Shown here: positions 1-45,645 of the stretch, one piece after another
Position numbering within the stretch: position 1 is the first letter of the stretch
Layout of the letters: every line of letters starts with the position of its first letter
Assembly (NCBI GenBank): GCA_017527155.1
Contig: JAFXQI010000012.1
Location: 1-64,000 of the forward strand
Direction: 5' to 3'
Source of the DNA: Kiritimatiellia bacterium
GTDB lineage: Bacteria > Verrucomicrobiota > Kiritimatiellia > CAIQIC01 > Lenti-01
DNA length: 64,000 nucleotides
Notes under the pieces: generated by a model
Seen by the model: only the letters and a program-made list of their open reading frames with translations
What the model was told of the DNA's origin: nothing
The model's database searches: none
Position numbers and translations under genes: made by a program

Positions 1-195
1 AGCCGCGGCGGGGTCCGCGGCAGCGGCGGGGGCGGCCTCGGCGGCGGGGGCGGCCTCGGCGGCGGGGGCTGCGGCCGGGGCTTCGGGGGCGGCGGATTCG
101 CTCGGGGAAGCGGGCGCGGCGGAATCGTCGTTGCAGGCGGCCAGAGCGGCCAGCAGCGCCAGGCAGGGAATCATCCAAACGAGTTTCTTGTTCAT
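1..195 (-). CDS. Putative lipoprotein with Ala/Pro/Glu-rich linker (3' end beyond window)
   Basis: Only the first 65 codons lie in the window; the gene continues past the left edge. The protein opens with two lysines, a hydrophobic stretch and a lipobox (L-A-A-C, Cys21), so it should be a lipid-anchored envelope protein. After the cysteine comes a low-complexity segment built from Ala, Pro and Glu, typical of a spacer holding a domain away from the membrane. An AAAGGA ribosome-binding site lies just upstream of the ATG. It shares strand with the microcompartment genes but is separated from them by 310 bp. The function cannot be told because the folded part is missing. Confidence 0.75.
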   Translation of the reverse strand, partial: MNKKLVWMIPCLALLAALAACNDDSAAPASPSESAAPEAPAAAPAAEAAPAAEAAPAAAADPAAA

Positions 196-505
196 GGGGT
201 CATTGGTCCTTTCATGCAGGAAGCGCCGGAAACCGTTTTCCGGCAGGCTGTTTTCAATTGCCGGGGACTATACCGGGGTGGGGTCCCCTTGTCAAATTGC
301 GCATGGCAGGGGCTGGAGGGGGGGCGGAGGCCGGGATGGGCGTGTGTTCATGGAGAAGGGATGGGGGGAAAAGAGGGGGAAACCCCGGGGTTTTTCCTGT
401 TTCCAAAAGTGGATCCGGTGGGGGTGCGGCGGGGACGGGAAAAATGGAAAAGCGGCGGTCTCCGGGTTGGGGAGGCCGCCGCCAGGGAATGGAAACGGAA
501 AGGGG
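196..505. other. Intergenic region with one ATG-ended module
   Basis: This 310-bp gap contains no convincing gene. It holds one copy of the dispersed 65-nt ATG-ended module (347-412) and otherwise G-rich sequence. A short hairpin GCCGGAAA/TTTCCGGC lies around 222-247, in the leader of the lipoprotein gene. Confidence 0.6.
347..412 (-). repeat. Dispersed ATG-ended module, copy 1
   Basis: Read on the minus strand: CTTTTGGAAACAGG, then GAAAA, a 39-nt C-rich segment with CATCCC, then CC-ATG-AACAC. It is one of nine related intergenic copies in this window. Confidence 0.7.
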
Positions 506-796
506 TCAGTCCTTGACGTAGAGGGTCTTGCCGCCGATTTCCCAGGTGTCGACGATGGCCATGATGACGGCATCGACAGGACGGTTCTGGGTGACGGTGG
601 TCTGGCGGGCGGAGGACCCGGCCGCGGTCAGGACGTACTCGCCGGGGCCCGCGCCCATGGCGTCGGCGGCGACGACGAAGTTGCCGGTTTCCTTGCCGTC
701 GGTGCCGACGAGGCGGACCAGCAGGAAGCGGATTCCGTCCAGGGACGGCTCTTTGCGGGTGGATACGACGGTGCCGACGACTTTGCCGAGGTTCAT
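506..796 (-). CDS. BMC vertex protein (EutN/CcmL family, BMC-P)
   Basis: This 96-residue protein has the length and pattern of the pentameric EutN/CcmL proteins that cap the vertices of microcompartment shells. It starts [13 protein letters not shown], carries the typical 'LVRLVG...[25 protein letters not shown]' segment around residues 25-64, and ends in the usual '[11 protein letters not shown]' strand near residues 74-83. It follows a BMC-H gene and an RpiB-DeoC enzyme gene on the same strand, so the three probably form one operon transcribed leftward. A GGAGAA ribosome-binding site sits 8 nt before the ATG. No unusual residue was seen. The call is strong; the substrate of the compartment is inferred from the neighbouring enzyme. 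Confidence 0.92.
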
Positions 797-904
797 GGGG
801 TTCTCCGGGAGGGTGGACGGGGTGGTCAGGAAGAGGGAAGGAATGGTGCGCAGGGAGGGCAGGGGGCTGTGGCCCGCCCGCCGGCCCTCCCCCGCGCGGA
901 GGGA

Positions 905-1207
905 TTACTTCCGGCCCTTCGGGGCTTCGGGAGCGCGGCCCAGCGGCAGCACGGCGTCGACGTTGGCGTGCGGACGCGCGATGACGTGGACGGAGACGAC
1001 TTCGCCGACGCGGCCGGCGGCGATCTGCCCGGCGTCGCAGGCGGCCTTGACGGCGGCGACGTCGCCGCGGACGATGACGGTGGTGAAACCGCCGCCGGTC
1101 TTTTCGTAGGTGACGAGTTCGACCTTGGCGGCCTTGACCATCGCATCGGCGGCCTCGACGGTCGCGGGGAAGGAACGGGTTTCGATCATTCCGAGTGCAT
1201 CTGCCAT
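905..1207 (-). CDS. BMC shell hexamer protein (BMC-H, PduA/EutM type)
   Basis: This 100-residue single BMC domain forms the hexameric facet tiles of a bacterial microcompartment. Typical features are the start [23 protein letters not shown], the 'KAAKVELV' helix-strand junction at residues 25-32, the '[18 protein letters not shown]' segment near residues 42-60 and a short C-terminal tail. AGAGG lies 7 nt before the ATG. It sits between the fusion enzyme and the vertex protein. Only one BMC-H and one BMC-P are present here, the minimum set for a closed shell, so other shell genes may lie elsewhere or the locus may be a satellite. Confidence 0.94.
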
Positions 1208-1248
1208 AATTTTACCTCTTGTTGTTTCGGGGTTGCTTTTTTAAATCT

Positions 1249-2535
1249 TCAGCGTCCGCCGCAGGCGGCGAGGGCTTCTTCCATCATCTTGACGGAGGAG
1301 GAGGCGCCGATGCGGGTGGCGCCGTTGCGGATCATGAGCATGGCGTCGGCGTAGGTGCGGACGCCGCCGGAGGCCTTGACGCCGAGCTTGGGGGCGACGG
1401 TGCGGGCCATGAGGGCGACGTCCTCGGCCTTGGCCCCGCCCTTGTTGAAGCCGGTGGAGGTCTTGACGTAGTCGGCGCGGGCCTTCATGGATGCGAGGCA
1501 GGCCTTGACGATCTCGTCGGGAGTCAGCAGGCAGGTCTCGAGGATGACCTTGAGCAGGCCGCGGCCGTCCTTGACGGATTCGCAGACGGTGCGGATGTCG
1601 CGCGCGACGCCGTCCCAGTCGCCGGACTTGGCCTTGCCGACGTTGATGACCATGTCGATTTCGCGGGCGCCGTTGCGCATGGCGTTGCGGGCTTCCATGG
1701 CCATCATCTGCGCGGACATGGCGCCGAGCGGGAACCCGACGACGGCGCAGACCTTGACGGAGGAGCCGCGGAGGGCCTGGGCGGCGACGGGGACCATGGC
1801 GGAGTTCACGCAGCAGCTCCAGAAGTTGTACTGGATGGCTTCGGCGCAGAGTTTCTTCACGTCGTCGGCCGTGGCCTCGGGCTTGAGGAGGGTGTGGTCG
1901 ATCATGCGCGCGAGCTGCTGGGCGGAAAGGTTGCCGGTGGCGGCCGCGACCTGGGCGCCGCCGACGGCGCAACCGCCGCCGACGATCTGCTTCACTCGCT
2001 CGGCGATCCGGGCGATGTCCTGGGGGCTGAGGTCCAATTTCATCTCCTTCATTGCGGCCATGACGGGCGAAGCCGCGCGTCCGGTCTCGAGGTCCTTGAT
2101 CATCCGGACGCGCCGCAGGTGCCTCTCTTCGGTGCAGTCCGTGGCCAGGAAGGTCTGGATGATGCCTTTGGCCTGTTCGAAAGGGGTCTGTCCGGAGCCG
2201 AGGGTGAGGAGGTTGGCTCCGTTGTGCTGGCGGGAATTGCGGGCGAGGGCCTCGTTGTAGCAGGCGGCGGCGCGGACGCCGGGGATCTTGTTGGCGGTCA
2301 TCGCGGAACCGATGCCGGCGCCGTCGACCATGATGCCGACGTCGGCGCGGCCGGCGGCGACGGTACGGGCGACCTTGGCGGCGAAGACGGGGTAATCGAC
2401 GGAGGGGGTCTTGGCGGCGGTGCCGACGTCGATGACGGCATGGCCGAGCGACTTGAGCCAGGAGGCGATCTGCTCCTTGAGCTCGAAGCCGCCGTGGTCG
2501 GCGCCGACGACGATTCTGCACGTTCCCGTTGACAT
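1249..2535 (-). CDS. RpiB-like isomerase fused to deoxyribose-phosphate aldolase (DeoC), BMC-targeted
   Basis: This 428-residue two-domain enzyme probably works inside the microcompartment. Residues 6-150 are an RpiB/LacAB-type sugar-phosphate isomerase (GADHGG at 11-16, RQHN at 102-105). Residues 207-425 are a class I DeoC aldolase, which splits deoxyribose-5-phosphate to acetaldehyde and glyceraldehyde-3-phosphate; both lysines are intact (Schiff-base K358 in VKTSTG, K387 in VKASGG). Between them, residues 168-187 form an amphipathic helix followed by Gly-rich sequence, like BMC encapsulation peptides. In RpiB the catalytic cysteine normally occupies I-C-G-T-G-I-G; here it is Asp71 (V-D-G-A-G-I-G). 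The start at 2535 is chosen because GGAGGAAA lies upstream and the RpiB fold begins at once; longer in-frame starts add an unrelated extension. RpiB plus DeoC define the known 'sugar phosphate utilizing' BMC type. Confidence 0.9.
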   Translation of the reverse strand: MSTGTCRIVVGADHGGFELKEQIASWLKSLGHAVIDVGTAAKTPSVDYPVFAAKVARTVAAGRADVGIMVDGAGIGSAMTANKIPGVRAAACYNEALARNSRQHNGANLLTLGSGQTPFEQAKGIIQTFLATDCTEERHLRRVRMIKDLETGRAASPVMAAMKEMKLDLSPQDIARIAERVKQIVGGGCAVGGAQVAAATGNLSAQQLARMIDHTLLKPEATADDVKKLCAEAIQYNFWSCCVNSAMVPVAAQALRGSSVKVCAVVGFPLGAMSAQMMAMEARNAMRNGAREIDMVINVGKAKSGDWDGVARDIRTVCESVKDGRGLLKVILETCLLTPDEIVKACLASMKARADYVKTSTGFNKGGAKAEDVALMARTVAPKLGVKASGGVRTYADAMLMIRNGATRIGASSSVKMMEEALAACGGR

Positions 2536-2681
2536 GATGCGGACAGTTTCCTCCCGCGCGGCGCGGGCGGCAAGCGCAAAGCGGGGGGGCGGAGTGAAAC
2601 GGTTTACCCGTGCGGGCGATCCCGCGCCCGCGTCCGCGCCGTCGGCAATGGGGTGTCCGCTGCGCGCGCGAAAAAGCGTGA

Positions 2682-2710
2682 TTGCCAAGGGCCATGGAAT
2701 GAGATAGGAT
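2682..2710 (+). promoter_or_regulatory. Promoter of the acidic repeat protein gene
   Basis: TTGCCA (2682-2687), 17-bp spacer, TAGGAT (2705-2710). A leader of about 25 nt with AAGGAG (2730-2735) precedes the ATG at 2743. Confidence 0.65.
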
Positions 2711-2742
2711 GTCGGAAATTATTGTAAACAAGGAGTGTTGTT

Positions 2743-3867
2743 ATGTCGCGTTGGATGTTGACGGTTGTTTGCGCGCTGTCGGTTGCGGCCGTGGCCGGGG
2801 CGCAGGATGACGATTGGGATGATTTGCTGGCCGGACTGGGCGACGATGCCGTCGAAGAAGCGCCGGCGGCGGTGGAAGTGACCGAGACCGCCGTGGTCGA
2901 AGAAGACCCGTTCGCGGACCTCTTCGACGAGGCGGAAGCCGTGCCCGAGGCGGTGGAAGCCGCCGCGGACGGGGCGGCGGATGCCGTGGCCGAAGCGGCC
3001 GAGGCCGTCGAGGCGATTCCGGAGGCCGTCGAAGAGGCCGATCCGTTCGCCGACGCCTGGGTCGATGCGGAACCGGTGGATGTATCCGGCGCGGTGGAAG
3101 AAGCCGCGGAAGAGGTCGCGGAGACGGTCGACGAAATGGCCGGGGCCGTGGAAGCGGGCGGGGAGGATCCGTTCGCGGACCTGTTCGAGGATGCGGGAAC
3201 GGAAGCCGCGGCGGCCGGGGAAGCCGTGGAAGAAACCGCGGATGCCGCGGTCGAAGAGGTCACCGCGGCCGCGGAAGCGGTGGCGGAGGAAGTGGTCGAA
3301 GAGGACCCGTTCGCGGACCTGTTCGCGGAAGAAGACGGGGCCTTCGGGGCCGAACCGGCCGCGGAAGCCGTCGAAGAAGCCGTCGAAGAAGCGGCCGAAG
3401 CGGTGTCCGAGGCCGTCGAGGAAGAGGCCGCGGCCGTCGAAGAGGCGGTTGTGGCGGAAGAAGCCGCAGCCGAAGAGGCGGTCGCCGAGGTGGCGGTCGC
3501 CGAAGAAGAGATGGCGCCGGTGGAAGAAGACGTGGCCGAAGCCGAAGCGTCGTTTGCGACCCCGGAAGAGGGCGAAGCGGCGGCGGACGTCATCCGCGCG
3601 GCGAAGAAGGGCAAGGGCAAAGGCAAGGACCGTGCCATGCGGGACGGCGAGCGGGTCCGTCCGGTGGAACCGATGGGGGCGTCGCAGAAGCAGGACACGT
3701 TCTCGTCGGAAGCCCGCAAGCCGCTCAAGCCGAAGACGGCGGTGCCGGCCTGGGATTCGCCCGTGATGCTGGATGGTTCCGAAGCGGAGCCGGCGGCGAA
3801 GCCCGCGAAGGCGGCCCCGGCCGCGCGCGAGTCGAAGGGCGATTGGAACGAGCCGGTGGTCTGGTAG
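2743..3867 (+). CDS. Secreted acidic repeat protein with DPFADLF motifs
   Basis: The 374-residue product starts with a clear signal peptide (MSRWMLTVVCALSVAAVAGA), so it is exported. The rest is strongly acidic and built from Ala, Glu and Val, with four spaced copies of (E)DPFAD(L/A)(F/W) near residues 55, 106, 148 and 191. The segments between them read like long helices or coiled coil (EEAVEEAAEAV pattern). Near residue 295 there is a short basic patch (KGKGKGK), then a Pro-rich tail ending in GDWNEPVVW. No enzyme domain is visible. It is transcribed divergently from the BMC genes, with its own promoter, ribosome-binding site and terminator. It may be a periplasmic scaffold or adhesin; this is a guess. 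Confidence 0.8.
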   Translation: MSRWMLTVVCALSVAAVAGAQDDDWDDLLAGLGDDAVEEAPAAVEVTETAVVEEDPFADLFDEAEAVPEAVEAAADGAADAVAEAAEAVEAIPEAVEEADPFADAWVDAEPVDVSGAVEEAAEEVAETVDEMAGAVEAGGEDPFADLFEDAGTEAAAAGEAVEETADAAVEEVTAAAEAVAEEVVEEDPFADLFAEEDGAFGAEPAAEAVEEAVEEAAEAVSEAVEEEAAAVEEAVVAEEAAAEEAVAEVAVAEEEMAPVEEDVAEAEASFATPEEGEAAADVIRAAKKGKGKGKDRAMRDGERVRPVEPMGASQKQDTFSSEARKPLKPKTAVPAWDSPVMLDGSEAEPAAKPAKAAPAARESKGDWNEPVVW

Positions 3868-5684: not shown

Positions 5685-7367
5685 CTAGTTTTCCAGGGCT
5701 TGGGCCTCCTCCGCGGCGGGCGCGTCGAAGCTCCAGCTGCCGAGCCAGAGGAAGCGGAGGCGGCGCTCTCCGGGGGTGCGGTCCCAGGCGAGAAGGCCCT
5801 TGAGGAAGGACCAGTGGCGCTCGCCGCGCGGTTCGCTGCGGTCGTGGTCCCACAGGGGGAAGGCGCTGAAGCTGCGCGAGCCGTCGGCTTCGCAACGCTG
5901 GCGGTAGAGGCCCCAGAGGACGTCGAGTTCGGAGCGGCCCTCCTTCGCGCGGTAGTCGGCGAGGGTCCAGAGCGGTGCCCAGGAGCGCTCCACCGGCGCC
6001 GGATTCGGTCCGGGCCAGAGCTCCAGCGTGCGCCAGCGGATCTCGCCGGTGTCCACGTTCGACGCGTGCGACCAGAGCGGCCATACCTTGGTGCGCGTGG
6101 CGGTGATGCGGCGCGGACCGTCGTCGGCGGGCGGCGGCGGGGGCGCGGCGGCGGAATCGCCGTCGCCGTCCCCCGAACCGGGGGCGATGGCGGAGAAGAG
6201 GCTCCCGCGCTTCGGCTCCGGCGGCGGGTCGCCCACGGGCACGCTGGTGGTGACGCGGTTCCAGAAGGGTACCAGCGTCCAGCGCACGCGCTGCTCGCGG
6301 CCCACGCGGTTCTGCTCGCGGATGAGGAACGGCCAGGCCCAGAAGGTCCGCCGCAGGTCGCCGTCGGTGCGGGTGCCCCAGAACGGCCACACGTAGAGCC
6401 GCTGGCGGTACTTGCCGGTTTCGCGCTGGAAGAACGGCCACGGGCAGTAGAGGCGGGTCATCTGCTCGCCCTCCACGTACTGGAAGAGCGGCGGCAGCGC
6501 CATCCAGCCCTTCTGCGAATTGAGGTCCACGCGGCCGCATACCGGGAAGAGCACCCACGCCTTGCCGTTCGCCTTCGGGTGCGTGTACTCGGCCTGGTTC
6601 CAGAAGGGCCACATCACCGACTTCTTGACGAACTGGCGCTTGTTTTCGACGCGCGAATAGAACGGGAACACGCGCAGCTTGTCCCACTTGCCGTCATCGG
6701 AGAGGCCGCGCGAATAGATGGGCCAGAGGATGTCGGTGGTATGCAGGTCGTTGACGTCGCTCTCCATCCAGATGGGCCAGAGCACGAACGAAATGCGGTC
6801 CTTCCACAAAAAATCGCGCACCGTCCCGCCGAAGGGGAACAGCGCCGCGTACGACTGCCCCTCCGCCGTCTGCCCGCTCGCCCATACCGGAAGGACCCAC
6901 AGATGGTCCGCCTTCGACGTCGAGTCGGATGCATCCTTGTCGAACCCGAACACGTTCGCCACGCGCCACGACCGCTCGTCGCCGAACGTCTTCCCCGCCG
7001 CGACGGGCCAGCACGCATCCCAGTTGGTGCGCCCGCCGACCGGGTCGATGGCGCGGCTCCAGAAGGGCCGCACCGGCGCGAACAGCTCGGTGCCGTCCGG
7101 GGCGGTGGTGTGCTCGTAGAACGGCCCGGCGGCGCGGGTGCGGTCGGCGCCGTCGATGGACTCGAGATGCGAAGCGAATGCGCCGGCGTCCCACTCCCAC
7201 GGGAGGGGCCAGGCGGGGGGCTCGGGGGAACCGGCGGGGGGCTCGGGGGACGCCGCCGCGCGAGGCGGCGCGCAGAACCACGCGGAAAGGATGACCAGGG
7301 CGAGGGCGGAAGCTTTCCAATGATTGGAACATTCCGTTGGGGCGTGGATGGCGGTGGGGGTGTGCAT
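5685..7367 (-). CDS. Secreted WPFW-repeat protein of unknown function
   Basis: The 560-residue product has an N-terminal signal sequence after MHTPTAIHAPTE and then about fifteen short units, each ending in an aromatic-proline motif such as VRPFW, VLPVW, LWPIW, MWPFW, VWPFW, AWPFL, LVPFW, VWPLW or AFPLW. Units are spaced by roughly 20-35 residues, which suggests a beta-propeller or stacked-sheet fold in the periplasm or outer membrane. No known domain was recognised. The start at 7367 is preferred over an in-frame ATG about 96 nt upstream, because a promoter lies 7 nt before 7367 and the signal peptide follows directly. A copy of the TTTCCAAT-GATTGGAA palindrome lies inside the signal-peptide coding region (7314-7328). 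Confidence 0.75.
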   Translation of the reverse strand: MHTPTAIHAPTECSNHWKASALALVILSAWFCAPPRAAASPEPPAGSPEPPAWPLPWEWDAGAFASHLESIDGADRTRAAGPFYEHTTAPDGTELFAPVRPFWSRAIDPVGGRTNWDACWPVAAGKTFGDERSWRVANVFGFDKDASDSTSKADHLWVLPVWASGQTAEGQSYAALFPFGGTVRDFLWKDRISFVLWPIWMESDVNDLHTTDILWPIYSRGLSDDGKWDKLRVFPFYSRVENKRQFVKKSVMWPFWNQAEYTHPKANGKAWVLFPVCGRVDLNSQKGWMALPPLFQYVEGEQMTRLYCPWPFFQRETGKYRQRLYVWPFWGTRTDGDLRRTFWAWPFLIREQNRVGREQRVRWTLVPFWNRVTTSVPVGDPPPEPKRGSLFSAIAPGSGDGDGDSAAAPPPPPADDGPRRITATRTKVWPLWSHASNVDTGEIRWRTLELWPGPNPAPVERSWAPLWTLADYRAKEGRSELDVLWGLYRQRCEADGSRSFSAFPLWDHDRSEPRGERHWSFLKGLLAWDRTPGERRLRFLWLGSWSFDAPAAEEAQALEN

Positions 7368-10991: not shown

Positions 10992-11057
10992 GGACGCGCA
11001 GAAGCGCGTCCCTCCCCCTTGGAGAGCGGACGGGGAGGGTCGCGCTTCCGCGCGACC
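10992..11057. repeat. Composite GC-rich double-hairpin element, copy 1
   Basis: GGACGCGC-agaa-GCGCGTCC (10992-11011), a C-rich/G-rich spacer that can also pair, then GGTCGCGC-ttcc-GCGCGACC (11038-11057). Relatives are at 13414, 35217 and 38486. Confidence 0.75.
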
Positions 11058-11119
11058 TTGTTTTGACTTCGGACGCCGGACTTCGGACCGCCCCCGCCAA
11101 CCCGCGGGGGGCTTGTGTA

Positions 11120-11183
11120 TTCATGGGGGGGATGATGGGTGTGAAACGGTGGAAAATGTGTGGTTTTTCCATAATCTCACGCG
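11120..11183 (-). repeat. Dispersed ATG-ended module, copy 3
   Basis: Minus-strand reading: GAGATTATGGAAAAA, 39-nt segment with TTTTCC and CATCAT, then CC-ATG-AATAC. Almost identical to copy 5. Confidence 0.7.
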
Positions 11184-11229
11184 ATGGGTCGGGAGGCGGT
11201 TTTTTTGGGGGGCGGGAGGGGTGGAAAAA

Positions 11230-11323
11230 TTTTTCCAACCATTGGAAAGTTTTTTTCCAATCATTGGAAAAAATGGGCGGAGTTTTCCAACCATTGGAAA
11301 AAAGTTTTCCAATCATTGGAAAA
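11230..11323. repeat. Palindrome array A (four TTTTCCAAYCATTGGAAAA units)
   Basis: Four near-palindromes are centred at 11240, 11262, 11292 and 11314, giving centre-to-centre spacings of 22, 30 and 22 bp. Unit centres are CCAACCATTGG or CCAATCATTGG. The array lies about 260 bp upstream of the second paralogue. Confidence 0.9.
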
Positions 11324-11416
11324 GTTGCGGGCGGGGGGCGGGCGGAGCGGGTTGTGGCCGGCGGGGCGGCCACGGCAAGACTCGGATGGGGCGGCGGCGG
11401 AGGGAAAGGGGAGATT

Positions 11417-11480
11417 TTCATGGGGATGGAATGTGGGTGAAATCGACGGGAAAGGCGTGTATTTTCTGTAATCTCATCGG
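11417..11480 (-). repeat. Dispersed ATG-ended module, copy 4
   Basis: Minus-strand reading: GAGATTACAGAAAAT, C-rich segment, CATTCC, then CC-ATG-AAAAT. On that strand palindrome array A follows about 95 nt after the ATG. Confidence 0.65.
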
Positions 11481-11581
11481 TGGGTTGGAGGGGGCGGGGG
11501 CCGGGGGCGGTTTTTGCTTGCGGGAAGGGGCGGGGGTCGGGCATGCTTTGATGCAAGAGAAACGTATTGGAGGCTTCCGCC

Positions 11582-13354
11582 ATGAAATCCACCATCCGCC
11601 ATGCCGTGCTCGCGATCGCCGCCGCTCTCGCGATGGTCCCGACCGTGCGCGCCGACGGGCCCGCCGCCTTCGCGCAGGTCGAAATCCGCGGGCTCGATGC
11701 CTTGTTCGCCGCCACCGACCGCATCGCCGCTCCCTACGTCCCCGCCGGGCAGGCCAAGGGGATGTTCATCGGGGCTTGCGAGGCCCGTGGCATCAATCCG
11801 TTCGAGGTCGTTGACGGCGGGGAGACCGTTCGCTTCCTGGTTTGCGAGGCGCCGAATTACCTGCTCGACATCCCCGCCGCCGGAGGCGATGCCTCCGCAG
11901 TCCTCGAGAAGCTGGCCGGAGCACTGGGTGCCGTCGACACCCCCAAAGGCGTCGACATGCCGGAAGGGGCGCATTTCCTCCGTACGGGCCTTCCCGCGAA
12001 CGCCCGGAGCCTCTTCATTCCCCGCGGAGGACGTCTCGTAGCCATCGACTACACCAAACCCAACCCGATCCCCCCGGCGCAGGCCCTCGCGCTACTCGAC
12101 GCCACCCCCGACGTGCCCGCCGAAGGCGTGCTGGCCAGTACCATCGATTTCGAGGCGCTGAAAACGGTCTGGACCCCAGCTCCGGAGGATTCTTCCGCCA
12201 CAGGGTTCCGGGAGATCCTGGCGGACCCCGATTTCCCCTTCCGTGCCGTCGCGTTCGGACTTGGACTCGACGGGGCCGACCGCTTCCGCGCCGATTTCTC
12301 CGCCGCGTACATTCCCGACGTACCCCAGGCACGCATCGTTTCGGGCATCGGGGCCCCCGTCTCGCCGCTCGCGAACGCCATCCTCTTCCCCGACGCCGTG
12401 GCGGCGGCCACCTGCCGCCAGGAACTGTCCGTCCTCTCCGACGATGAACTCCGCTCCTTCCTGTCCGGCGACACCGGGGACGACGACCCGCGGATCGCCG
12501 CCGCGGACGTTGCCCTGACCGCCGCCTGCCTCCCGCTCCTCCGGCTGCTTGGCGACGAATACGCCATTGCCCTCCTCCCTGCGGACGACGGGGAGGAAGC
12601 CGGCAGCGCCGCCCTCCTCGCGTTCCCAGCCGACCCGCAGACCGCCCTCGACGGGGTGCCCGCCATCCTCGAGGGGGGGATATCCGCGTTCGCCGGGGCC
12701 TTCGCGGCCATCGCCGAAGAGGATGGCGACGACGTTCCCGACGTGGCCGTGGCCGCCTCCCGGATCCGCATCGAGCCCGTCGGCGAACGGACTGTGCAGG
12801 GGACGCCCGTGCGCCGCTACACTTTCCGCCTGGAGGGAGAAGGCAACGATTCCGCGCGCGATCTCGGCTTCTTCGAGGCCGCGGCCGCCGGACCTGCGCT
12901 GTACCTCGGGACGCTCCCCGACGGCCGCCTCGGCGACGTGCTCGCCGACCTCGCCGCCGGGCATACCGCGAAGGGCCCGGTCGCCGCCATGCCGTCCTTC
13001 GCCGCCGCCTACGGGGAAGCGCCCGAAGGGGCCGCCTGCGGCTACGTGCGCCTGCGGCCGGCGCTCCGCGCGATTCTGCCGGCGCTGCGCAACCTGATGC
13101 GGGCCATGGGCGCGGACGAGATCGAACTCAAGGACCTCGTCAACCCCGTGTCGTTTGCGCTCTCCCTGGATGGACATCCCTACCTCCCGGACGTCACCCT
13201 GGCCTCCACCCAGCGCTGGCTCCCCGACGGCAACCGCCTGGAAAGCATCGTCTCGATGCCGCTGGCGGACCTCCATGCCGCCATCGACGCCGTTGTCACT
13301 TGCCATCGCCGCGCCTGCGAAATCATCGGCGCACATGGCGCCGCCGGGCGGTAA
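11582..13354 (+). CDS. Secreted protein of unknown family, tandem paralogue 2
   Basis: The 590-residue product is the tandem duplicate of the protein encoded at 9018. It shares an almost identical signal peptide and first 80 residues, the 'SGIGAPVSPLANAILFPDAVAA' stretch in the middle and a long identical block near the C-terminus (residues about 435-500). Segments between these blocks differ strongly, including in length, so the pair is mosaic rather than uniformly diverged. No domain was recognised. The leader with GGAGG is also duplicated, so the start at 11582 corresponds to 9018. It is probably exported to the periplasm; role unknown. Confidence 0.78.
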   Translation: MKSTIRHAVLAIAAALAMVPTVRADGPAAFAQVEIRGLDALFAATDRIAAPYVPAGQAKGMFIGACEARGINPFEVVDGGETVRFLVCEAPNYLLDIPAAGGDASAVLEKLAGALGAVDTPKGVDMPEGAHFLRTGLPANARSLFIPRGGRLVAIDYTKPNPIPPAQALALLDATPDVPAEGVLASTIDFEALKTVWTPAPEDSSATGFREILADPDFPFRAVAFGLGLDGADRFRADFSAAYIPDVPQARIVSGIGAPVSPLANAILFPDAVAAATCRQELSVLSDDELRSFLSGDTGDDDPRIAAADVALTAACLPLLRLLGDEYAIALLPADDGEEAGSAALLAFPADPQTALDGVPAILEGGISAFAGAFAAIAEEDGDDVPDVAVAASRIRIEPVGERTVQGTPVRRYTFRLEGEGNDSARDLGFFEAAAAGPALYLGTLPDGRLGDVLADLAAGHTAKGPVAAMPSFAAAYGEAPEGAACGYVRLRPALRAILPALRNLMRAMGADEIELKDLVNPVSFALSLDGHPYLPDVTLASTQRWLPDGNRLESIVSMPLADLHAAIDAVVTCHRRACEIIGAHGAAGR

Positions 13355-13413
13355 GGGCCCCCTCGGCAAGGCGCAAGGGACAAAGAAACGGGAGCCGAAT
13401 TTGGTTTTGCGGA

Positions 13414-13433
13414 GGACGCGCAGAAGCGCGTCC
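13414..13433. repeat. GC-rich hairpin element, partial copy
   Basis: GGACGCGC-agaa-GCGCGTCC survives; the second hairpin has decayed to GGAGGGGCGC followed by an eight-T run (about 13453-13472), which could act as a terminator. Confidence 0.65.
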
Positions 13434-13530
13434 CTCCCCTTGGGGAGCGCTCCGGGAGGGGCGCTTTTTTTTGACTTCGGACACCGGACTTCGGACGGCC
13501 TCCCAAGGGGGGGGGCGGGCGGGGTGTGTG

Positions 13531-13594
13531 TTCATGGGGGGGATGATGGGTGTGAAACAGGGGAAAATGTGCGATTTTTCCGTAATCTCACGCG
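13531..13594 (-). repeat. Dispersed ATG-ended module, copy 5
   Basis: Minus-strand reading: GAGATTACGGAAAAA, 39-nt segment with TTTTCC and CATCAT, then CC-ATG-AACAC. Confidence 0.7.
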
Positions 13595-13640
13595 ATGGGT
13601 CGGGAGGCGGTTTTTTTGGGGGGCGGGAGGGGCGGAAAAG

Positions 13641-13745
13641 TTTTTCCAATCGTTGGAAAACGGGCGAAAAATTTTTCCAATCATTGGAAAAATCGCGGAA
13701 ATTTTTCCAACCATTGGAAACTTTTTTTCCAATCATTGGAAAAAC
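13641..13745. repeat. Palindrome array B (four units)
   Basis: Units are centred at 13651, 13682, 13712 and 13734 (spacings 31, 30, 22 bp). The first unit has a variant core, CCAATCGTTGG. It is the duplicate of array A but has a different first spacing. Confidence 0.9.
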
Positions 13746-13803
13746 CGCGGGCGGCGGGCGGGCGGGCGGGTTGTGGCCGGCGGGGCGGCCACGGGCCATA
13801 CTC

Positions 13804-15549
13804 TTATGGGGCGGGGGCGATGGTCCAGGAGAGGGGGGGGATGGGCGGGGTGCCGGAGGGGAAGGCGGGGGGCGGCGGGAGGGGGGCGGGGCCTTTGTTG
13901 AGGCAGACGAGGACGCGGTCGGGGCCGAGGCGGCGTTCGTAGGCGATGGCGGTCTCGGTTCCGGTTTCGAGCCAGCGGAAGGTGCCGCGGCGGAGAGCCG
14001 GGTGGGCGGCGCGGAGGGTCGCCAGGGCGCGGTAGTGGGCGAGGAGGGGCGCGTTCGGGACGCGGGGGGTGGCGGCGGGCAGGGGGCCGCGGTAGCCGAG
14101 GGTCTCGGGGTCGAGGGGAATGTCGGGCCACGGCATGGGCTGCCGGTCGCAGGGGTCGTTGGCGCCCCAGAGGCCGAGTTCGTCGCCGTAGTAGATCATC
14201 GGGGCGCCCGGGGCGGTGAATTGCCATACGGTCGCGAGGCGCAGGCGGGCGAGGGCGTCGGGGGACGGGGCGTCGGTCCGCAGCTGCGCGTTGTCGGCCA
14301 CGCGCGCCCAGCGGAAGTAGTTGTCCCAGTTGGCGAAGGGCGGGCACGAGGAGTGCAGCATGGTCAGGATGCGCCCGGTGTCGTGGGAGCCGAGGAGGTT
14401 CTGCATGACGAGCGTGGTGCCGGGGTCGTGCCGGGCGTGCAGGCGGTCGATGGCGGCGCGGAAGGCGGTCGCGGTCAGGGCCTGGCTGTGCGGGGTGAAG
14501 AAGGAGAGGGTGGGAAAAAGCCACTCGTAGTTCATCGCGGCGGTGAATTCGCCGGGGCGCACCCACTCCTGCGCGGGGCCGACGATTTCGGCCGTGGTGT
14601 AGGCGTCGGGGTTCAGCGCGCGGACGTGGGCGTGCCAGTCGCGCCAGAAGCCGTGGGGGACGCAGAAGGCGACGTCCAGGCGCCAGCCGTCGATGCCGTC
14701 GCGGGGGACGCCGGGCGGCGGGTCGGGGCGCATCCAGCGGCGGGTGATGTCGAAGAGGTAGCGCTTGACGGGCGCCGCGAGGTCGTCGCCGCCGGGGGCG
14801 CGCGCGAAGGCGGGCAGGGATCCGTTCGGGCCGTCCCACGCGGCGTATTCGGGGGTGCCGTCGCGCCGGAAGCGGGCGACCTGGTACCAGCCGAGGTAGG
14901 GGGACGCGGGGCCGTTTTCGAGGATGTCCCGGAAGGCGAAGCACCGGCGCCCGCTGTGGTTGAACACGCCGTCGAGGATCACCCGGATGCCCAGGGCGTG
15001 GGCGTCGCGCACGAGCTCCAGGAATTGGCGGTCGGCGGCGGTCCAGATCCACGTGGACGGGTCCTCGGTCTCGCGCGCGGCGGCCAGCGCGGCGAGGTCG
15101 CCGGCGCGGTCGGGGCCGAGGGTCGGGTCGATGTGGTGGTAGCAGGTGGCGTCGTACTTGTGCAGGGAGGCGGCCTGGAAGACGGGGTTGAGGTAGAGGG
15201 CCGTGACGCCGAGGTCGCGCAAATACGGCAGTTTTTCGCGCACGCCCACGAGGTCGCCGCCGAGGCGGCGGTCGAAGACGGTGTCCCAGTACTTCGGGGA
15301 TCGGGCCGTCTCCCAGGCGTCGCGCGCGTACCACTCCATCCCCCACGGGCGGATGCGCCAGCCGGGAATCGGGCGGTCGGAAAAGTCCTCGGGCCGCGGA
15401 TCGGACTGCGGGGCGCCGTTGCGGAAGCGCTCGGGGAAGATCTGGTACCAGACGGCGTCCTTCGCCCAGTCGGGCGCCGCGGGCGGGTCCTCGGCGACGC
15501 GGATGGCGGAGGGCGGCGGGGGCGGCGGCGGCGTGGAGAACAGCGGCAT
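13804..15549 (-). CDS. GH13 alpha-amylase family glycosidase
   Basis: This 581-residue cytoplasmic enzyme belongs to glycoside hydrolase family 13 and resembles cyclomaltodextrinase/neopullulanase-type alpha-glucan hydrolases. The conserved regions are ILDGVFNHSG (191-200), DGWRLDVAF with nucleophile D292, TTAEIVG with acid/base E321, and LLGSHDTGR with D390. The last region has Ser instead of the usual Asn before His-Asp. WAKDAVWYQIFPERF near residue 28 is the typical barrel start. There is no signal peptide. The catalytic barrel is followed by a short beta domain ending in a Pro-rich tail. It faces the secreted paralogue convergently and is followed by an unrelated rhomboid gene on its upstream side. 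Confidence 0.9.
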   Translation of the reverse strand: MPLFSTPPPPPPPSAIRVAEDPPAAPDWAKDAVWYQIFPERFRNGAPQSDPRPEDFSDRPIPGWRIRPWGMEWYARDAWETARSPKYWDTVFDRRLGGDLVGVREKLPYLRDLGVTALYLNPVFQAASLHKYDATCYHHIDPTLGPDRAGDLAALAAARETEDPSTWIWTAADRQFLELVRDAHALGIRVILDGVFNHSGRRCFAFRDILENGPASPYLGWYQVARFRRDGTPEYAAWDGPNGSLPAFARAPGGDDLAAPVKRYLFDITRRWMRPDPPPGVPRDGIDGWRLDVAFCVPHGFWRDWHAHVRALNPDAYTTAEIVGPAQEWVRPGEFTAAMNYEWLFPTLSFFTPHSQALTATAFRAAIDRLHARHDPGTTLVMQNLLGSHDTGRILTMLHSSCPPFANWDNYFRWARVADNAQLRTDAPSPDALARLRLATVWQFTAPGAPMIYYGDELGLWGANDPCDRQPMPWPDIPLDPETLGYRGPLPAATPRVPNAPLLAHYRALATLRAAHPALRRGTFRWLETGTETAIAYERRLGPDRVLVCLNKGPAPLPPPPAFPSGTPPIPPLSWTIAPAP

Positions 15550-24286: not shown

Positions 24287-24379
24287 TTTTCCAATGGTTG
24301 GAAAACTTTTTTCCAATGGTTGGAAAAATCGGTCGGGGTTTTCCAATGGTTGGAAAAAAAGTTTCCAATGGTTGGAAAA
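24287..24379. repeat. Palindrome array C (four TTTTCCAATGGTTGGAAAA units)
   Basis: Units are centred at 24296, 24318, 24348 and 24370: spacings 22, 30, 22 bp, identical to array A although the flanks are unrelated. All four cores read CCAATGGTTGG, which is the complement of the CCAACCATTGG core in other arrays. Confidence 0.92.
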
Positions 24380-45521: not shown

Positions 45522-45645
45522 TTTTCCAATCATTGGAAACATTTTTTCCAATCATTGGAAAAATGCCGAAAATTTTTTCCAATCATTGGAAAAAACGGAC
45601 GGATTTTTCCAACCATTGGAAAAATATTTTCCAATCATTGGAAAA
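45522..45645. repeat. Palindrome array D (five units)
   Basis: Units are centred at 45531, 45553, 45584, 45614 and 45636: spacings 22, 31, 30, 22 bp. Four cores are CCAATCATTGG and one is CCAACCATTGG. The array lies between the stop of the MlaE gene (16 bp away) and the TPR lipoprotein promoter. Confidence 0.93.

Follow-up and report, generated by a model that had tools for sequence, protein, structure and literature searches.

Helically phased palindrome arrays scattered through Kiritimatiellae genomes, candidate sites for a cooperative DNA-binding protein

Noc, SlmA and MatP act through palindromic chromosomal sites that are dispersed, are not bound to a regulon and either avoid or concentrate at the terminus (ter), and we know of no phased arrays among these sites. 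SeqA recognizes GATC in its hemimethylated form and binds such sites cooperatively across the genome where they share one DNA face. To our knowledge, no phasing has been reported for HIP1. This highly iterated palindrome of cyanobacteria, the function of which is not settled (PMC4390886), has the ungapped 8-mer sequence GCGATCGC and is linked to DNA methyltransferases, whereas the repeat described here, from the class Kiritimatiellae, is a gapped 15-19-mer that is clustered and helically phased and has the core TTCCAA-N3-TTGGAA instead of GCGATCGC. By abundance and clade-wide spread HIP1 is nevertheless the nearest kind: both are short palindromes with very many copies throughout a large clade, apart from exceptional relatives in which they are scarce. 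With the Noc, SlmA and MatP sites the units share dispersal over the chromosome outside any regulon, and with SeqA sites their phasing on one DNA face, although the core contains no GATC. They also resemble the REP, BIME and REPIN elements (PMC2817692) in that extragenic palindromes occur in large numbers and are often grouped at regular spacing, but differ in their helical-turn spacing, and neither an associated transposase nor a conserved element body between units was found in the palindrome arrays. Searches of the open-access literature with the exact and the gapped motif returned no published description of these sequences, and the papers found there on Kiritimatiellae and palindromes do not, judging by their titles and abstracts, deal with such repeats.

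The window, that is, the whole stretch of 64,000 nucleotides analyzed, was scanned with the 19-mer TTTTCCAAYSRTTGGAAAA, allowing up to 3 mismatches. The four arrays of 4, 4, 4 and 5 units that a sequence-only reading had described were all present at the spacings it gave (Table 1), and the 19-mer had 0 matches in 100 dinucleotide-preserving shuffles of the window; its ends for A and B were off by 1-2 bases. According to gene calls from a simple script rather than from a standard gene caller, array A lies between two + strand genes and array B between convergent genes. Gene calls and Pfam likewise agreed with its placing of array C upstream of a GT2 glycosyltransferase gene (∼150 bp away, between two - strand genes) and of array D with mlaE on one side and the gene for a TPR protein on the other, both on the - strand; on the right the array ends 17 bp from the mlaE stop (PF02405, E = 1.9e-47), and on the left ∼150 bp separate it from the TPR gene start. 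The flanks of arrays A and B (window 11000-11640 and 13300-13900) are alike over hundreds of bases, indicating, as judged from the sequence, a local duplication whose two copies differ in the first spacing (22 versus 31). No Rfam families were found in the window.

Table 1. Palindrome units and arrays in the 64,000-nt window
Feature	Coordinates	Strand	Description
Array A	11231..11323	.	4 palindromes at 11231, 11253, 11283, 11305; spacings 22-30-22
Array B	13642..13743	.	4 palindromes at 13642, 13673, 13703, 13725; spacings 31-30-22
Array C	24287..24379	.	4 palindromes at 24287, 24309, 24339, 24361; spacings 22-30-22
Array D	45522..45645	.	5 19-bp palindromes at 45522, 45544, 45575, 45605, 45627; spacings 22-31-30-22
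Lone imperfect unit	7313..7331	.	2-3 mismatches to the 19-mer; within the predicted start of a - strand gene

The genome from which the window comes, a 3.23-Mb draft, contains 475 copies of the 17-mer TTTCCAAYSRTTGGAAA with at most 1 mismatch and 456 exact copies of TTCCAAYSRTTGGAA, compared with 0 copies of the reversed control pattern. The unit can be written as TTTCCAA-N-S-N-TTGGAAA, 17-19 bp long. In 1.08 Mb of this genome read directly, much of it chosen because it holds arrays, there were 71 arrays of 2-7 units each, and the spacings between neighboring units were 22 (108 cases), 31 (73), 30 (64), 21 (6), 29 (4) and 40 bp (1). The 22/30/22 pattern, previously put forward as the conserved spacing, is thus present but is one of many arrangements, the commonest being 31-30-22, followed by 22-30-22 and 22-31-31-30-22. 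The central triplet is tied to the spacing in this genome, such that CCA is usually followed by a spacing of 22, and a spacing of 30 usually precedes CCA. Near misses are scarce: 0.35 Mb contained 59 exact, 4 one-mismatch and 5 two-mismatch sites, where a Markov model predicts 0, 0 and 6, respectively.

The tabulated spacings are not random, either in this genome or elsewhere in the class. In unrelated lineages, in which the linkers differ throughout, the spacing is 31-32 bp, and loci pooled from many other genomes of the class likewise gave mostly 31-32 bp. In the genome AM-2014_bin-1020 (G289), 195 counted neighbor cases had a spacing of 32 bp; almost all spacings were 32 bp in an f2 genome (G065) and 31-32 bp in an f65 genome (G307). 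In the complete chromosome G081, neighbor distances fell at 22, 31-32, 42 and 53 bp (9, 14 and 10 cases for the first three), giving a phasing of R = 0.85 at 10.5 bp, a value to be read with the nonindependence of distances within arrays in mind. The exact pairs of this chromosome (22 bp, 5; 31 bp, 7; 40 bp, 1; 42 bp, 4) were matched in phasing by 0 of 5000 random draws, and the information content of its isolated sites is nearly all within about +/-9 bp. The f9 genomes have peaks at 17, 22-23, 28, 32-33 and 42-45 bp, which suggest half-turn steps, and G157 taken by itself is weakly phased. Overall, except for this weakness in the f9 genomes, the sites show the whole-turn spacing combined with free linkers that characterizes cooperative phased protein sites, and the placing of the sites on one helical face, with spacing kept independently of the linkers, holds across lineages.

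Judged from these patterns, the units are very probably protein-DNA sites of some form. The explanation that we consider best, and probable, is that each unit would be a double-stranded DNA site for a putative homodimeric DNA-binding protein; with neighboring sites whole helical turns apart (about 22, 31-32, 42 or 53 bp), the dimers would lie on one DNA face, where they would bind cooperatively and form a small array. The palindrome and its whole-turn spacing are constrained and the linkers are free, and this is the pattern expected of cooperative dimer binding, which the sequence-only reading had also proposed and which the phasing and the arm constraint (below) support by implication. By contrast, helical phasing would be meaningless for the single-stranded linkers of transcribed hairpins.

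The arm constraint emerged from comparison with the near-identical genome G101, in which seven arrays of the window's genome could be placed at orthologous positions. The array was present at six of the seven, with at most one unit or one base of spacing difference; at the ortholog of array D, the spacings were the same and the linkers had changed. In five hand-aligned orthologous pairs (flank identity 91-99%), changes numbered 1 in 276 arm positions, 3 in 69 central-triplet positions and 15 in 201 linker positions (arms versus linkers, p = 1.7e-5; this and several other p values given here come from small numbers and multiple looks). The comparison also revealed linker turnover and loss of units within arrays. 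None of the seven pairs had a clean empty site with target duplications; one locus lacked the array amid other changes. This locus is the six-unit array at position 5285 of L330, which in G101 (L382) is missing, a different 450-base segment standing between the matching flanks.

Transcribed hairpins, acting as 3' UTR elements or terminators, or cruciforms would also be palindromic, and an array does give a strong RNA fold (z = -9.1), as palindromes must. Tandem arrays in G289 also lie close to gene ends, with the upstream stop closer in 44 of 60, and a few units in G289 carry palindrome-preserving double changes of the kind a hairpin would compensate. However, the outer unit positions in G289 vary without compensation, arrays occupy divergent regions of that genome at the background rate and are common there, T tracts precede the stem instead of following it, and there is no terminator-like site at array D. 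The arrangement of an intrinsic terminator, in which a GC stem at the end of a gene leads into a T tract, was thus not found, and the units are neither all downstream of genes nor all followed by T tracts, so that the hairpin-only alternative named in the sequence-only reading fails. We consider hairpins or cruciforms the least probable explanation of the arrays. In L223, L232, L241 and L247, in-register units 31-64 bp from exact sites had both arms changed to match, for example TTCCATTGAATGGAA; such changes might come from selection on dyad symmetry or from template-switch correction.

A further alternative is that a global transcription regulator uses the arrays as cooperative operators, for which phased palindromes would be typical. 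In the window's genome, divergent regions were under-used (p = 0.014): 43 arrays lay in tandem contexts, 15 between convergent and 7 between divergent genes, and 4 inside genes. The tandem arrays were aligned with gene direction in 33 cases and opposed in 10 (p = 0.0006), which leaves a link to transcription open, and arrays faced the nearest gene start in 6 of the 7 divergent cases. These polarities favor operators, but the 15 convergent arrays do not, nor does the position of the G289 tandem arrays nearer the upstream stop. The density of arrays in G289 (about one per 3 kb at loci selected for having pairs) and the location of 39 of the 66 G081 site clusters inside genes are equally awkward for operators; the description of the arrays as intergenic thus suits the window's genome (4 of 71 inside genes) but not all relatives. 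Moreover, the neighboring genes are unrelated and often housekeeping genes. Pfam scans of four overlapping sets of array-flanking proteins (62, 60, 35 and 59 members) revealed no functional theme, so that the arrays are not placed upstream of functionally related genes as regulon operators would be, and the suggested tie to particular envelope operons was not supported. Few clusters of flanking genes recurred across genomes; mlaE did so in three, which means little because one of the three is so site-dense. Operators of a global regulator thus seem unlikely.

With respect to chromosome position, the skew of G081 places ori at ∼1.45 Mb and ter at ∼3.42 Mb, and site counts in 20 stretches did not correlate with distance from ori (Spearman p = 0.49). 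The arrays of G081 hence differ from the ter-patterned sites of Noc, SlmA and MatP, being neither depleted nor enriched at the terminus. Because gene function and chromosome position make no difference and orientation makes little, we consider a chromosome-wide role likelier than a regulon. For arrays scattered irrespective of gene function, the most likely job of the putative protein would therefore be chromosome-wide, such as nucleoid architecture, bridging or segregation, rather than control of a regulon; it is from the patterns above that we infer the protein, its cooperativity and its chromosomal role.

In a phylum scan of 289 genomes with a stricter motif, counts above 1 were confined to the window's class, with other classes at 1 or 0, and the named loci with sites in a collection scan were mostly Kiritimatiellae records. 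The core with free center, TTCCAA-N3-TTGGAA, occurred at least once in 65 of 116 sampled class genomes, many of them draft metagenome bins, with copy numbers from 1 to 3,044 (those of 1-5 may have arisen by chance), compared with 0-1 per genome for the reversed pattern, an abundance of the HIP1 type. The preferred central triplet depends on lineage, being TCA/TGA in G289, TCA/TGA and CCA/TGG in the window's genome and GCC/GGC in G065. Four relatives of the same family (G068, G093, G223 and G231) have 0 sites, so site gain and loss must be fast.

Such rapid gain and loss among relatives would suit self-recognition or recombination sites, that is, a recombination signal or DNA-uptake-like sequence whose copies build up through molecular drive, by conversion or uptake bias, as would the gene-independent spread, the presence inside genes in some genomes, the linker turnover and the loss of units within arrays. 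Uptake, however, has no obvious need for helical phasing of multiple sites, a near-perfect palindrome carries little direction, and exact sites far outnumber near misses in the window's genome, although drive could do likewise. On balance we regard such sites as quite unlikely, judging from the sequences.

Patchy distribution, hundreds of intergenic copies and the commonness of Y1 transposases in the class are all compatible with transposase-driven mobile repeats of the REP/BIME/REPIN or MITE type, and with 456 exact copies and nearly all arrays outside genes the window's genome exceeds the 100 extragenic palindromes per genome typical of REP/REPIN. Against this, no cognate Y1 (RAYT) gene flanked by repeats was found: among 30 Y1 loci (at most ∼3.3 kb each, from 9 genomes), one in the site-dense G289 had a pair of units, one had a single unit and 28 had none. 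In addition, Y1 matches in the window's genome are weak and few, site-free relatives have more Y1 copies, and spacing is kept while linkers and flanks differ between arrays. Y1/RAYT transposases were consequently rejected as the cause, and mobile repeats are a very improbable explanation. Overall, the evidence speaks against RNA hairpins and terminators, against REPINs, and against a regulon or ter-related sites.

Cooperative binding of a putative homodimer with a chromosome-wide role itself has to accommodate several findings. Searches for the protein yielded no candidate binder, which counts against it, and KilA-N was ruled out as a universal binder because several site-rich genomes lack it, although the two KilA-N genes of the window's genome, at C60:69186 and C55:6539, both adjoin arrays. 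Also against it are the weak f9 phasing, the palindrome-preserving double changes in G289, which are equally expected from hairpin or template-switch correction, and the 33 of 43 tandem polarity, which would not be expected of a purely architectural role. So, too, is the range in copy number from 0 to thousands between relatives, which implies that the system is dispensable or replaceable.

A site of 15-19 bp that is present class-wide in hundreds to thousands of copies and whose spacing is kept within about a base would nonetheless imply a strong chromosome-wide DNA-binding activity. Tentatively, the Kiritimatiellae may possess a chromosome-organizing system in which a sequence-specific, chromatin-like protein would nucleate on hundreds to thousands of phased palindromes. 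As a similarly speculative part of that reading, the protein, with sites in most intergenic regions of some genomes, might fold or insulate the chromosome one gene at a time. The purpose of genome-wide iterated palindromes is a question that also stands for HIP1, and because the linkers are free and one genus contains both site-bearing and site-free relatives, the arrays offer a natural experiment on it. Genera with both site-rich and site-poor species include those of G074, G323 and G265, of G035, G050 and G087, and of G254 and G240.

Plasmid sequences had no match to the units. Only 3 viral contigs in IMG/VR carry a pair (L386, L387, L388, L389), and the units are therefore not a viral feature. 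Finally, a record titled Firmicutes (L192, MWAC01000309.1) has a pair at 31 bp, with 2 exact units in that genome, and is possibly a misbinned contig.
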